Origin: Natronomonas pharaonis DSM 2160
Lineage (GTDB): Archaea > Halobacteriota > Halobacteria > Halobacteriales > Haloarculaceae
Direction: 5' to 3'
Length of the DNA: 64,000 nucleotides
NCBI RefSeq assembly: GCF_000026045.1
Contig: NC_007426.1
Coordinates: 806,001 to 870,000, forward strand
This document shows, one piece after another, positions 34,935-46,578 of the stretch. A program made the translations under genes and the position numbers. Each line of letters opens with the position of its first letter. The first letter of the stretch is position 1. Below the pieces are notes generated by a model. The model saw only the letters and a program-made list of their open reading frames with translations, was not told where the DNA came from and did no database searches.

Positions 34935-35029
34935 ACGCCTCCCGTTCGGGCGGGCCCTCACAAAAGCTCCGCTCGGTTCCGACCGTTGATTCGAGAGTGT
35001 TATCCCCGCCTAATACAAACGGGATAGCA

Positions 35030-35953
35030 ATGCGACGACGCACGTACCTCACCGCTGCAGGCGGCCTCTTTGCCGCCGGGCTCGCTGGCTGTACCGACGA
35101 GGAGCCGACCGGTAACGGAAACGGCGACACCGGCGAGGAACCGATGACCGTCGGCGAGTGGGCCGACGGCCACATCGAGTTCGCGCTGCCGCCGTTTCAG
35201 GACGCCGAGGAACTGACCGCAGAGTACGAGCCCGTCTTCGAGTGGCTCGAAGACGGCTTTGACGGTGTCGACACAGTCACTGCGACCCCGACGACGAGCT
35301 ACAGCGCCGTCGTCGAAAGCGTCGTCAACGGGCACACTGAAATGGCGAACCTCTCGCCGATAATCTATGCGCTCGCCGCCGAGGACGGCGTCAACCCGCT
35401 TGCAGTCAACTGGTCGCACGGTAGCGAGGCCTATCACACCTACATCGCCACCCGCGCCGAGACGGACATCGAGACGTTGGCCGACATCCAGGGGCACACG
35501 ATTGCGATGGTCGACCCGCTGTCGACGAGCGGCGGGCTGTTCCCCCGCTACATGCTCGACGAGGCTGGCCTCGATGCCGGCGACGTGGATACGGAGCCGG
35601 GGGATTTCGACATCGACTGGGCGTTCGGCCACGGGGCTGCGCTCGATGCGTTGCAGGCCGGCCACGTTGATGCGGCCGCCTACGGCGACTTCGAGCACCC
35701 GGACGACGATGACATCGTTCGCGTCGCCGAGAGCGACCCCATCCCGTTCGACCCGGTGGTCGCCAAGCCGGAGACGCCCGACGCCGTTCAGGAAGCGCTC
35801 ATCGACCGACTACTGGAGACGCCCGAAGACGTACTCGAAGCCCACCGCATCGACCGCTTCGGCGAGGTCGAGCCCGGGACCTACGACCCGGTCCGCAATG
35901 TCGCCGAGGCGATGGGCGTCGACATTGCCGACCTCGAGGAAGACGACGACTGA
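35030..35953 (+). CDS. phnD: Phosphonate-type ABC transporter substrate-binding lipoprotein
   Basis: 307 residues. The start MRRRTYLTAAGGLFAAGLAG ends in a lipobox Cys (LAGC) after a twin-arginine, so it is a Tat-exported lipoprotein. The PhnD fold is indicated by VTATPTTSYSAVVESVVNGH, EMANLSPIIYALAAEDG, DIQGHTIAMVDPLSTSGGLF and AALDALQAGHVDAAAYGDFE. It should deliver phosphonate, phosphite or a related oxyanion to the PhnC/PhnE transporter encoded next. No C-P lyase genes are in the window, so the ligand is not known. Confidence 0.88.
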   Translation: MRRRTYLTAAGGLFAAGLAGCTDEEPTGNGNGDTGEEPMTVGEWADGHIEFALPPFQDAEELTAEYEPVFEWLEDGFDGVDTVTATPTTSYSAVVESVVNGHTEMANLSPIIYALAAEDGVNPLAVNWSHGSEAYHTYIATRAETDIETLADIQGHTIAMVDPLSTSGGLFPRYMLDEAGLDAGDVDTEPGDFDIDWAFGHGAALDALQAGHVDAAAYGDFEHPDDDDIVRVAESDPIPFDPVVAKPETPDAVQEALIDRLLETPEDVLEAHRIDRFGEVEPGTYDPVRNVAEAMGVDIADLEEDDD

Positions 35954-36655
35954 ATGCTTTCCGTCTCGGGACTGACGAAGCGCTACGGTGACGAACGCGC
36001 CCTCGACGATGTCTCTGTCGACCTCCAGCGCGGCGAGTTGACGGTACTCGTCGGTCGCTCGGGGGCCGGCAAGACGACGTTGCTTCGCTGTCTCGACGGT
36101 CTGGAACAGCCCGACGACGGGACCATCGAACTCGACGGTCGTGCGCCGGCTACAACGGATGTCGCCCTCGTTTTCCAGGCGGGCGCGCTTGTCGACAGCA
36201 AGTCGGCGCTCTCGAACGTCCTTGATGGGGCGCTCGGGCGACTCCCGTCGTGGCGGGAACTGCTCGGCGTCTATCCGGCCGACGAAAAGCGGGCGGCGAT
36301 AGCCCGGCTTCACGACGTTGGATTGGGTGGCTACGCCGACCGCCGCGTCGGAACGCTGTCGGGCGGCCAGCGCCAGCGAGTCGGCATCGCCCGCGCGCTC
36401 CAACAGGAGCCGGCGGTACTCTTGGCCGACGAGCCGGTCGCGAGTCTCGACCCCGAAACCGGCCGGGACGTTCTCGAACGGGTAGCGGCGGTCGTTCGCG
36501 ACGACGACCTCATCGGGGTTGTCAGTCTCCACCAGCCGCGGCTCGCCGAACCTATCGCCGACCGCTATCTCGGCCTCGCGGACGGTCGGCTAGTGTTGGA
36601 CCGCCCCGCAGCGGCGCTCGACCGCGAGGATATTACGGCCGTCTACGATGACTGA
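35954..36655 (+). CDS. phnC: Phosphonate-type ABC transporter ATPase
   Basis: 233 residues beginning directly after the phnD stop. Walker A GRSGAGKTTLL, signature LSGGQRQRVGIARAL, Walker B AVLLADEPVASLD and a switch His in GVVSLHQPRLAE are all intact. It powers the PhnE permease. The gene is shorter than typical PhnC in the helical domain but complete. Its 3' end overlaps phnE by 8 nt. Confidence 0.92.
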   Translation: MLSVSGLTKRYGDERALDDVSVDLQRGELTVLVGRSGAGKTTLLRCLDGLEQPDDGTIELDGRAPATTDVALVFQAGALVDSKSALSNVLDGALGRLPSWRELLGVYPADEKRAAIARLHDVGLGGYADRRVGTLSGGQRQRVGIARALQQEPAVLLADEPVASLDPETGRDVLERVAAVVRDDDLIGVVSLHQPRLAEPIADRYLGLADGRLVLDRPAAALDREDITAVYDD

Positions 36656-37499
36656 CCCTGATTCGGTCGATGAGGAGCTCGCCCGCATTCAGCGGCAGTG
36701 GCAACGCCGGATGGTCGTCAGAGCCGTCGCCGTTGCCGCCGTCGTTGCTGCTGTCGTCGCTGCCGGCCGGTGGCTCGGCTTCGACCTCGGGTATCTCTAT
36801 GCCCACCGGCAGAACCTTCAGGACATCCTCCTCGAAGAGATGCTCGCTCCACGCGCGCTGTGGGCGCAGCTACAGGGTGACGCGCCGACGCTGTTGCCGG
36901 CCGCTGTCGAGACGCTTGCCATCGCCGGTGTCGGTACCGCCATCGGCCTGCCGCTGGCGTTCGCGCTCGGCGTCCTCGCGGCGGGCAACGTCACGCCGCG
37001 CTACGTCAGCACCCCCGCCAGACTGTTTCTCGGAACGCTCCGTGCAGTCCCGAGTATGGTGTATGCGCTGCTTTTTGTCATTCTCGCCGGATTGGGGGCA
37101 GTCGCCGGCACGCTCGCCATCGCTGTCGGGACGGTCGGTGACCTCGGGCGGCTCTTTGCTGACGAACTCGAAGAGGTCGACGAGACGCCGGCGGAGGCGG
37201 TCAGCTCGGCGGGTGCGGGCGTTGCTGCGACGACTGCGGCCGCTCGACTCCCGCAGGTGACGACGGCCTATATTGCGTGGACGCTGTTCTATCTTGAGCT
37301 CAACGCCAGAAAGAGTTCGGTGCTCGGCATCGTCGGTGCCGGCGGTATCGGCTATCCGCTCATCATGGCGTTCCGCGCCCGCAACTACACCCGCGTCATG
37401 GCGGCTATCGTCGTCATCCTCTGTCTCGTTGTCGGCGTCGAGACGCTCGCCAACCGGCTTCGCGGTTGGCTTGATGCCGAGCGGAACGCCTCGCGCTGA
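36648..37499 (+). CDS. phnE: Phosphonate-type ABC transporter permease
   Basis: 283 residues with about six membrane helices and the EAA loop (VSSAGAGVAATTAAARLPQV) that docks the ATPase. A C-terminal stretch (GIVGAGGIGYPLIMAFRARN) is characteristic of the PhnE family. A single permease gene implies a homodimeric channel. The operon order is phnD-phnC-phnE, tightly spaced or overlapping. Confidence 0.9.
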   Translation: MTDPDSVDEELARIQRQWQRRMVVRAVAVAAVVAAVVAAGRWLGFDLGYLYAHRQNLQDILLEEMLAPRALWAQLQGDAPTLLPAAVETLAIAGVGTAIGLPLAFALGVLAAGNVTPRYVSTPARLFLGTLRAVPSMVYALLFVILAGLGAVAGTLAIAVGTVGDLGRLFADELEEVDETPAEAVSSAGAGVAATTAAARLPQVTTAYIAWTLFYLELNARKSSVLGIVGAGGIGYPLIMAFRARNYTRVMAAIVVILCLVVGVETLANRLRGWLDAERNASR

Positions 37500-39035: not shown

Positions 39036-40667
39036 ATGCGCTTGGGGAGAAACTCACAACAGGTTTCCAGCGGGTTACCCGCTGGACTCGGTCGAATCGG
39101 CCAGCAATACAGCCTGAAGATAACTGGCTTTCTGGCCGCCATCTTCGTGCTGACGCTCCTGTTTGCGGCTGCTGCCGCCCGCCATGTCGCCACGGGCGCG
39201 GCCGGAACAGCGGTTGACCGCGCGGTCGCTGGCTTCGCCGGGCTGATGCTCGTGCTGTTTGTCAACCTCGGTCTGGTGGCCATCGTCATGGGCGGCAACG
39301 TCTCGCTTTCGTTGCAGCGGCTGAGCCGCAAGGCCGAACGCATCGGCGACGGCGAGTTCGATGTCGATATCCGGACGCCGCGAAATGACGAAATAAGCGA
39401 CCTCTATGGGTCGATTCGGACGATGCGTGACTCGCTTGAGACGACCCTGTCGGACCTCGAAGCGACCCGCGAGGAGATGGCGGCCGAGCGGGAACGGGCA
39501 ACGGAAGCGAAACGGCGTGCTGAGGCGCAAAACGAGGAACTACTGGAGACTGCAGCGCAGTTCTCGGCGGCGATGTCTGCGTGTGCCGCCGGCGACCTCT
39601 CCCAGCGACTTGACGCCGATACTGACGATGAGGCAATACGAAACATCGTCGACTCGTTTAACGACATGCTCGACGAACTGGAGGCGGCCGTCGCCGGCGC
39701 TCAGGAATCGGCCCGGCGTATCGACCGACTGTCGGCCGACCTCGACGGCTCCGGTGACGACCTCCAAACCGGCAGTGCGGATGTCGTAGCCGCGGTCGAC
39801 ACTATTGCGGATGGGGCCGCGCGACAGACCGACGAACTGCAGGAAGCCGCCGCCGAAATCAGCCAACTCTCGGCGACGACTGAGGAGGTCGCCTCGACCA
39901 CCGACACCATCGCCGAGCGGTCGGCAGCCGTCGCCGAGCGGGCCGCGGAGGGCAGCAACGCCGCCGCCGGGACGGCCGAACGGATGGAAGACACCGTAGC
40001 GAAGACCGAAACTGTCGTCGAGACCGTCGACGACCTCGTGGCCGAGGCGGACGAAATTGAGGCTATCATCGAGACCATCGAAGATATCGTCGACCAGATT
40101 ACCGTGCTGGCGCTGAACGCCAACATCGAGGCTGCCCGCTCCGACGCTGGCGGTGAGGGCTTTGCGGTCGTCGCCGACGAGGTCAAAGCCCTTTCTGAGG
40201 AGACGATGGCTGCCGTCGACGACATTGAGGCGACCTTGGAGTCGATACAGCGGATGGCCGACCGCACCGCGGACGATATCGCAGGCGTCGACCAGAGCGT
40301 CCGGACAGCGGCGACAGACGCCGCCGAGGTCCGCAACCACCTTGAGACGATTAGCGCCGATATCGAGGATGTCGACGCGAGCATCCAGCAGATAGCCGAC
40401 ACCGCCGACACGCAGGCCCAGACGGCACAGGAACTCTCCGAAATCGTTGATTCGGTCGCCGACATCTCCGCCGAAACAACCGACGAAGCCAACTCGGCGG
40501 CCGCTACCGCCGACGAGATGGCGGCTGCAACCGAGACTGTTGCTGAGACGGCCGCTGACCTCGATGCTGAGGCTGCCGAACTCAGCAACGCCATGGCGGC
40601 CTTCGATGCCGAGACGAAGCCGACTCCCCAGACAACTGCCGAGCCTGAGCCGGGGGTGAGTGACTAA
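39036..40667 (+). CDS. HtrII-like sensory transducer (two TM, HAMP, MCP)
   Basis: 543 residues. TM1 (about 29-46) and TM2 (about 65-86) are joined by a short outside loop with no sensor domain. After TM2 the sequence NLGLVAIVMGGNVSLSLQRL leads into a HAMP domain, a second HAMP (CAAGDLSQRLDADTDDEA), and a methyl-accepting coiled coil with tip LALNANIEAARSDAGGEGFA. From memory this closely follows N. pharaonis HtrII, whose Asn74 at the same TM2 position (here Asn77) hydrogen-bonds SRII Tyr199. It is translationally coupled (TAATG) to the opsin-like gene and should signal to CheA. Confidence 0.88.
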   Translation: MRLGRNSQQVSSGLPAGLGRIGQQYSLKITGFLAAIFVLTLLFAAAAARHVATGAAGTAVDRAVAGFAGLMLVLFVNLGLVAIVMGGNVSLSLQRLSRKAERIGDGEFDVDIRTPRNDEISDLYGSIRTMRDSLETTLSDLEATREEMAAERERATEAKRRAEAQNEELLETAAQFSAAMSACAAGDLSQRLDADTDDEAIRNIVDSFNDMLDELEAAVAGAQESARRIDRLSADLDGSGDDLQTGSADVVAAVDTIADGAARQTDELQEAAAEISQLSATTEEVASTTDTIAERSAAVAERAAEGSNAAAGTAERMEDTVAKTETVVETVDDLVAEADEIEAIIETIEDIVDQITVLALNANIEAARSDAGGEGFAVVADEVKALSEETMAAVDDIEATLESIQRMADRTADDIAGVDQSVRTAATDAAEVRNHLETISADIEDVDASIQQIADTADTQAQTAQELSEIVDSVADISAETTDEANSAAATADEMAAATETVAETAADLDAEAAELSNAMAAFDAETKPTPQTTAEPEPGVSD

Positions 40668-41368
40668 TGCTGCCGACCTCGACAATATATCTCGGCATGG
40701 TGGTGGCACTCAGTCTCGGCGCCGTCGTATTCGCCGCCGTCGCGTCACGGTTGTCGGGTACCGCCCGCCGGCTCGGGCTTATTGCTGCCGTCCCGGCGGC
40801 GGCGATGGCCGTTGCATACCTCGGGATGGGTTTGGAGTGGCTCACTATTGAGACCGAAGGGCGAGAGCAGTCCATCATGCGGTTTCTCGGCTACACGGTC
40901 GCGCTGACGGCGTACACGTACCTGCTGGCGCGTCCGGTCGGGCTTTCCCGGCGGAAGGCCGTCGGACTACTCGCGGTGTTACTTGTCACCCTCTGGAGCG
41001 CACTTGCGACGTGGCTGACGACCGGTGCCGCCGAGAGTGCTATCACGCTGCTTTCAATTTCCGCGTATCTCTTTGGCGTCTACCTGCTGTTCAAGCCGTT
41101 TTCGCGGGTGGCTGCGGCGGCCCCCGGCGAGGCGCGGCTCCTGTACGGAAAGCTACGGAACCTCTTTGTGCTCTGCTGGGGTGGACTACTCGTCGCTTCC
41201 GCCATCTCCGAACAGGCGATAGGGCTCACTGACGCGTTCATCGGGCAGTTCGCCGCCAGCTACATCGACCTCGTGTTGATGCTCGGCATCGGGGGACTGG
41301 TGCTGTTTTCCCGCTTCGTCAGAGACCCCACCGCCACGGAGCGTGCGGACGCGACTGCCGCTGACTGA
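40667..41368 (+). CDS. Opsin-like seven-helix protein lacking the retinal lysine
   Basis: 233 residues with seven membrane helices. Helix F YGKLRNLFVLCWGGLLVASA and helix G FAASYIDLVLMLGIGGLVLF align without gaps to sensory rhodopsin II as I remember it, even in numbering: Tyr199 and Asp201 are kept, but Lys205 is Met and Thr204 is Leu. In helix C, Arg72 is kept while the counterion Asp75 is Gly and Trp76 is Tyr, with Thr79/Thr80/Pro81 replaced by Ala/Leu/Thr. Covalent retinal binding should be impossible. The frame is intact and coupled to an HtrII-like transducer, so it is likely a functional non-retinal partner. Confidence 0.85.
   Translation: MLPTSTIYLGMVVALSLGAVVFAAVASRLSGTARRLGLIAAVPAAAMAVAYLGMGLEWLTIETEGREQSIMRFLGYTVALTAYTYLLARPVGLSRRKAVGLLAVLLVTLWSALATWLTTGAAESAITLLSISAYLFGVYLLFKPFSRVAAAAPGEARLLYGKLRNLFVLCWGGLLVASAISEQAIGLTDAFIGQFAASYIDLVLMLGIGGLVLFSRFVRDPTATERADATAAD

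Positions 41369-44322: not shown

Positions 44323-46578
<2,256 letters not shown>

Follow-up and report, generated by a model that had tools for sequence, protein, structure and literature searches.

A lysine-less opsin-related protein and its adjoining transducer in Natronomonas pharaonis, probably a receptor pair for a stimulus other than light

In the window analyzed herein, a 64,000-nucleotide stretch of the Natronomonas pharaonis DSM 2160 chromosome (NC_007426.1, positions 806,001 to 870,000), the gene for a halobacterial transducer (Htr) is followed by a gene for an opsin-like protein. As summarized in Table 1, both frames proved to be open, as a previous sequence-only reading of this DNA had stated. 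The single base shared by the two frames suggests that they may be translationally coupled; the same reading had called the genes co-transcribed, of which the overlap was borne out, and it is from this overlap that co-transcription is surmised.

Table 1. Features of the opsin/transducer locus (window positions; opsin residues in the numbering of N. pharaonis SRII)
Feature	Position	Strand	Remark
Transducer gene (Htr/MCP), 543 aa	39036..40667	+	taken as NP1756A (tag via PMC3403918)
Transducer His50	39183..39185	+	aligns with HtrII Glu43 of the extracellular contact
Transducer Asn77	39264..39266	+	corresponds to HtrII Asn74 (TM2 contact to Tyr199; contact from PMC3274258)
HAMP domain	39288..39440	+	aa 85-135
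MCPsignal domain	39954..40466	+	aa 307-477; kinase-control tip around ALNANIEAAR (aa 359)
TAATG	40665..40669	+	transducer stop and opsin start, one base in common
Gene for Lys-less opsin-related protein, 233 aa	40667..41368	+	seven-helix rhodopsin fold (predicted); taken as NP1758A (tag via PMC3403918)
Opsin Arg72	40880..40882	+	kept in 53/53 hydrophobic-205 homologues
Opsin Gly75	40889..40891	+	replaces counterion Asp75
Opsin Asp189	41231..41233	+	Thr189 in NpSRII; putative extracellular contact to transducer
Opsin Tyr199	41261..41263	+	invariant in 125/125 aligned opsins
Opsin Asp201	41267..41269	+	kept; Asp or Glu in 53/53 hydrophobic-205 homologues
Opsin Met205	41279..41281	+	at the Schiff-base Lys position

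The opsin matched the Pfam model Bac_rhodopsin at 40.1 bits (cut-off 24.6), while NCBIfam held no model for it, and its best solved relatives by sequence were the chains of N. pharaonis sensory rhodopsin II (NpSRII; E = 1.8e-5), the identity to SRII being 24%. An AlphaFold2 model built on a 52-row alignment (mean pLDDT 93.7, pTM 0.89) displayed seven long helices. The first Foldseek matches of this model were SRII and SRII/HtrII entries (TM about 0.86), with the SRII/HtrII complex as the best PDB match by E-value (TM 0.86), and VIA-align placed it at Z scores of about 28-29 (rmsd 1.6-2.0 Å) from SRII and bacteriorhodopsin (BR) alike. Considering that these Z scores were tied, the fold is that of a rhodopsin, with SRII not singled out. 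The rhodopsin fold is thus predicted at high confidence, and a chance resemblance to rhodopsins was rejected in view of the Pfam, PDB sequence and fold matches. The transducer was in good agreement with the halobacterial architecture, consisting of two transmembrane (TM) helices joined by a loop of about 20 residues and followed by Pfam HAMP and MCPsignal domains, with no extracellular sensor domain.

The pair has a history in the literature. NP1758A of N. pharaonis has been described as a distant rhodopsin homologue without the retinal Lys, NP1758A and NP3132A adjoin the transducer genes NP1756A and NP3134A, respectively, and the group of Lys-less homologues was proposed to perceive external stimuli (Siddaramappa 2012, PMC3403918). 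Since that paper names exactly two such pairs, and the genome was found to contain exactly two Lys-less opsin/transducer pairs in the same order, at 0.847 Mb (the window) and 1.512 Mb, the window pair is almost certainly NP1758A/NP1756A, the tags being assigned from chromosome order and description. In our literature search, the tags NP1758A, NP1756A and NP3132A appeared in that one paper only. The class of opsin-related proteins (ORPs) was then defined by Becker 2016, divided into group A (Arg) and group B (hydrophobic), together with the conserved signalling residues and the hypothesis of a non-light function, and with N. pharaonis in the tree of Fig. 2B (PMC4915679). The window pair is therefore already described (PMC3403918, PMC4915679), and the present finding is a correct rediscovery.

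For the comparison of individual residues, the SRII and HtrII of the same genome served as the reference of a MAFFT alignment in NpSRII numbering; this SRII is identical, letter for letter, to the solved N. pharaonis SRII over the region compared. The window opsin was found to carry Met205, Gly75, Tyr76, Thr108, Thr127, Trp171, Leu174 and Ser178, and to keep Tyr51, Arg72, Tyr199 and Asp201 of SRII; with Asp189 in addition, it has the set retained in group B (Y51, R72, D189 and Y199). The alignment thus upheld what had been claimed for this protein, namely Met in place of the Schiff-base Lys, Gly in place of the counterion Asp, and Arg72, Tyr199 and Asp201 kept at the numbers that they have in SRII. 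Of the features by which a retinal-binding type 1 rhodopsin was judged, the seven-helix fold is present in the model, the Lys in helix G and the carboxylate at position 75 are missing (Met205 and Gly75), and position 75 was Asp in all 23 canonical sensory rhodopsins (SRs) compared. A misaligned Lys was rejected: helix G contains none, the only lysines of the protein being K97, K143 and K162.

Relatives were collected by searching 392 genomes of the order with a profile built from 11 Lys-less opsins, and the sequences of about 120 loci were retrieved; the 257 genomes with a profile match include those with canonical sensory rhodopsins, so that this number is not a figure of ORP prevalence. Among 125 aligned opsins, residue 205 was Lys in 23, Arg in 40, His in nine and hydrophobic or small in 53, and Tyr199 was present in every one. 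The 23 Lys opsins, which are the canonical SRs, share nine invariant retinal-site positions (W76, T79, T80, G112, W171, Y174, P175, W178 and K205), eight of which, all but W171, were changed in most of the 53 hydrophobic-205 opsins. The latter instead carry Tyr76, mostly Trp80 and Thr112, Leu174, and Gly, Ser or Ala at 178; Arg72 and Tyr76 are invariant in them, position 201 is always Asp or Glu, and Gly75 occurs in 49. The Met/Gly combination, for which a search of orthologues had been proposed, did not hold as a pair, with Met, Thr or Ala at 205 and Gly or Ala at 75 in the nearest orthologues, and with Gly75 holding in the 49 of 53 just mentioned. We thus dropped Met205 as a conserved functional residue, as position 205 varies freely (M, T, A) even within its own subclade; by this variation, the Met itself is unlikely to matter, and the group traits appear to be Gly75 and the loss of Lys. 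Across the ORPs, position 205 was occupied by M, T, A, L, F, V, I, H or R. A transducer gene adjoins the opsin on the same strand in 74 of 102 Lys-less cases, and 24 of the 53 hydrophobic-205 homologues have none within 600 nt.

Judged by its sequence, the window opsin is a member of ORP group B: it has a hydrophobic residue 205, falls within the Lys-less monophyletic group, shows the T127/L174/S178 cavity, and adjoins a HAMP/MCP transducer, a neighbor that is common in the group and not universal. Nothing of substance separates it from the published description of group B (PMC4915679), which comprises the absence of the Schiff-base Lys, a hydrophobic 205, the changes of W178 to a small residue, Y174 to Leu and F127 to Ser/Thr, the retention of Y51, R72, D189 and Y199, and the adjacent HAMP/MCP transducer. 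Also among the closest known systems are those of the 2012 paper, namely NP1758A/NP1756A, almost certainly the window pair itself, NP3132A/NP3134A and Nmag_2879-2882 (PMC3403918). Rh-noK of betaproteobacteria and the retinal-less FArhodopsins are likewise rhodopsins without a usable retinal site, but they are described as bacterial branches, and the FArhodopsin cluster has no transducer genes (PMC10308929). With the SRII/HtrII of N. pharaonis, the window pair shares the fold, the Tyr199-Asn74 contact residues, the gene order of transducer then opsin and the HAMP/MCP output, whereas Lys205, Asp75 and the retinal box are lost.

In the crystal structure of SRII/HtrII, the partners are held together by hydrogen bonds at two sites, Tyr199-Asn74 and Thr189-Glu43/Ser62; both BR and halorhodopsin (HR) bind HtrII once Thr and Tyr are introduced at the matching sites (PMC3274258). 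At the inner site, the Asn of VNLGLVA had been equated with the HtrII Asn that bonds Tyr199, and indeed Asn77 in this motif of the window transducer aligned with Asn74 in INLGLVA of NpHtrII. The corresponding position was Asn in 41 and His in 10 of the 51 readable short-type ORP transducers, so that all 51 carry one or the other, compared with Asn in only four of nine short-type SR transducers. Within the 19 MCP genes of N. pharaonis, the TM2 motif was present in each of the three with an opsin gene next to them and in one of the 16 others. At the outer site, the window pair has Asp189/His where SRII/HtrII has Thr189/Glu43-Ser62; ORP transducers mostly carry His at this HtrII-43 position, and Asp189 with His was the commonest ORP combination (30/51), whereas most SR pairs have Thr with Glu or Arg. 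The association of D189 with H43 within the ORPs gave a Fisher p of 0.005, and of 0.013 after thinning at 70% identity; on independent tree pairs it was not significant, these pairs being too few and the comparison underpowered. These observations are suggestive of an ORP outer contact re-tuned to Asp189-His. From the conserved contact residues and the matching trees described below, we infer that the window transducer binds its opsin, and that they would form a complex of the SRII/HtrII kind, with Tyr199-Asn77 as the contact near mid-membrane and Asp189-His50 as that on the extracellular side.

A maximum-likelihood tree was computed for 64 opsins, with halorhodopsin and a BR-like protein as the root. 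The 53 rows without Lys all fell into one clade (100/99); one change from Lys suffices, and a single loss of Lys fits this tree. The window opsin belonged to a six-row clade (100/99) within a hydrophobic-205 clade of 22 rows (97/94). Since the transducer tree recovered the same small clade with the window member (100) and the same main groups, receptor and transducer have been inherited together; furthermore, the window and the orthologous loci in another genus have different genes around the pair, which thus moves as a unit. The search for orthologues that had been proposed earlier yielded Lys-less orthologues with an adjacent transducer, and the closest orthologous M205 pair (loci L070 and L071) gave dN/dS values of 0.095 for the opsin and 0.044 for the Htr, which indicate that it is under purifying selection. 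A pseudogene was rejected on the grounds of the open frames, the tree and these values.

Regarding retinal, N. pharaonis possesses two genes of the brp/blh type (PF15461), halorhodopsin and SRII. PF15461 was absent from 15 of 52 good-quality ORP-bearing genomes, which supports an independence of ORPs from retinal, with the proviso that another beta-carotenase may serve there, as a further type of this enzyme exists (PMC3403918). The earlier view that the light-sensing chemistry is lost while the interface to the transducer is kept was thus well supported by the tree, the contact residues, the purifying selection and the genomes without brp/blh.

Taken together, the pair is probably a functional ORP group B receptor-transducer pair with a non-light input, derived from a sensory rhodopsin through one ancient loss of retinal binding. 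The likely sensor is the opsin, since the transducer lacks an ectodomain. A non-light stimulus, for which a small molecule or an ion gaining access to the altered R72/D201 pocket from outside the cell is the most plausible candidate, would act on the remodelled helix bundle and shift helices F and G; this shift would turn TM2 of the transducer, and the signal passed on to HAMP would then change CheA activity and archaellum switching. The genome contains CheW matches and six flagellin-domain matches. To our knowledge, neither a ligand nor a complex nor a taxis phenotype is known for any ORP, and mass spectrometry of native cells did not reveal ORP protein (PMC4915679). Of the earlier proposal of a stimulus other than light, the general part stands as the best reading and had already been published as a hypothesis for this pair and its class (PMC3403918, PMC4915679).

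The alternative that fares best is a variant of this reading, in which the buried R72-D/E201 pair, kept in the group, would be the sensor of a physical state, be it membrane potential, pH, or an osmotic or lipid state. It is in keeping with the conservation of both residues in all 53 hydrophobic-205 opsins, where no Schiff base is left to balance them, and with the titratable His205 or Arg205 of related groups; however, this network may be merely structural, and the three diverged N. pharaonis paralogues with their different pockets suggest several different stimuli, and thus we consider this variant to be unlikely, if of some weight. A stimulus-free role of the opsin as scaffold or regulator, in which it would set the baseline of the transducer or modulate other receptors, is rather improbable. 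A regulatory role toward a partner has been suggested for other Lys-less rhodopsins, such as the betaproteobacterial Rh-noK beside a pump (PMC10308929), and the SRII/HtrII of the genome would be a possible partner; nevertheless, ORPs with their own transducers occur in genomes without PF15461, which probably lack light signalling, a transducer without ectodomain would have no input if the opsin did not sense, and the long branches and the diverse residues at 205 fit varied stimuli better.

Still less credence can be given to a phototaxis-like response to light sensed via non-covalent retinal or a different chromophore, for instance a carotenoid. Although N. pharaonis makes retinal and possesses other rhodopsins, the changes at eight of the nine retinal-site positions in most of the group and the ORP genomes without PF15461 oppose it, as does the observation that two other ORPs, when purified, showed no absorbance band at 480-580 nm in the presence of retinal (Becker 2016, PMC4915679). 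Finally, that the gene is a decaying SRII relic, as the lost Lys and counterion and the low identity to SRII might imply, is hardly credible given the open frame, the one ancient clade over several families of the order, the dN/dS of the closest orthologous opsins and the conserved transducer interface.

If the non-light reading is true, the pair constitutes a natural control for SRII/HtrII in the best-studied sensory rhodopsin organism, with the same fold, output and contact Tyr/Asn and a different input, and it would show that prokaryotes can put the rhodopsin scaffold to use as a chemoreceptor. Owing to the existing NpSRII/HtrII structures and assays, the ORP stimulus, which the papers of 2012 and 2016 left as a question, is directly testable here. 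As a claim of discovery, the present analysis adds detail and no new kind. Relative to those papers, their supplementary files aside, the additions are the transducer side of the interface, with Asn or His at HtrII-74 in all readable ORP transducers; the congruent receptor and transducer trees and the purifying selection on the closest orthologous pair; additional classes at 205, one of His and one of Arg that is separate from the first Arg group (64-opsin tree); and, in N. pharaonis, a third Lys-less opsin without transducer and an orphan ORP-type transducer. More speculatively, and with doubt prevailing over belief, rhodopsin-fold proteins may be general non-light chemoreceptors of archaea, a prokaryotic counterpart of GPCR diversification, each having a dedicated transducer via a re-tuned outer (Asp189-His) and a little-changed inner contact (Tyr199-Asn/His); as a weak lead, the stimulus of the present subclade might be linked to short-chain acyl metabolism.

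In total, three Lys-less opsins and one orphan ORP-type transducer were found in N. pharaonis. The second pair (locus L065; genome C1:1511981-1514447) consists of a Lys-less opsin with Arg205 (L065:3982-4695, minus strand) and an upstream transducer (L065:4688-6448, minus strand) that overlaps it by 8 bases, and is probably NP3132A/NP3134A. This opsin was not detected by Pfam Bac_rhodopsin, and Pfam-based counts therefore miss it. The third opsin (L066:7225-7881, minus strand; genome C1:2563224-2563880) has Arg205, Asp189 and Tyr199, and no transducer was found within about 6 kb on either side. The orphan transducer (L207:6945-8753, minus strand; genome C1:1504944-1506752) has an ORP-type TM2 (FTLNLGLLG), a His near the HtrII-43 position and no adjacent opsin. 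In the transducer tree it grouped with Arg-type ORP transducers, its nearest relative being the partner of a different ORP; it might conceivably serve the third opsin as a partner in trans.

Elsewhere in the order, the ORP loci L102, L103, L104, L105, L107, L188-L191, L194, L195 and L197 (mostly Arg205, Tyr76) and L074-L079 (His205) have transducers of about 740-800 aa in which a long insert separates TM1 from TM2, the last group having the transducer downstream of the opsin. These long-insert transducers may combine the opsin input with an extracellular domain.

Apart from a weak acyl-CoA theme, the genes neighboring the pair, in the window and at the orthologous loci, offered no hint of a ligand. 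An acyl-CoA dehydrogenase gene adjoins the window pair, and a gene for a DeoC/LacD-family aldolase is adjacent to the orthologous pair in another genus of the family at all four loci (L068, L069, L070 and L071), three of which also have a gene for a carboxyl-transferase of the propionyl/acetyl-CoA carboxylase type beside it. Within the window, the binding protein, ATPase and permease of a phosphonate-type ABC transporter form a cassette upstream of the pair at 34997-37499, and the gene at 44323-46578 encodes a fusion of malic enzyme with a phosphate acetyl/butyryl transferase domain.
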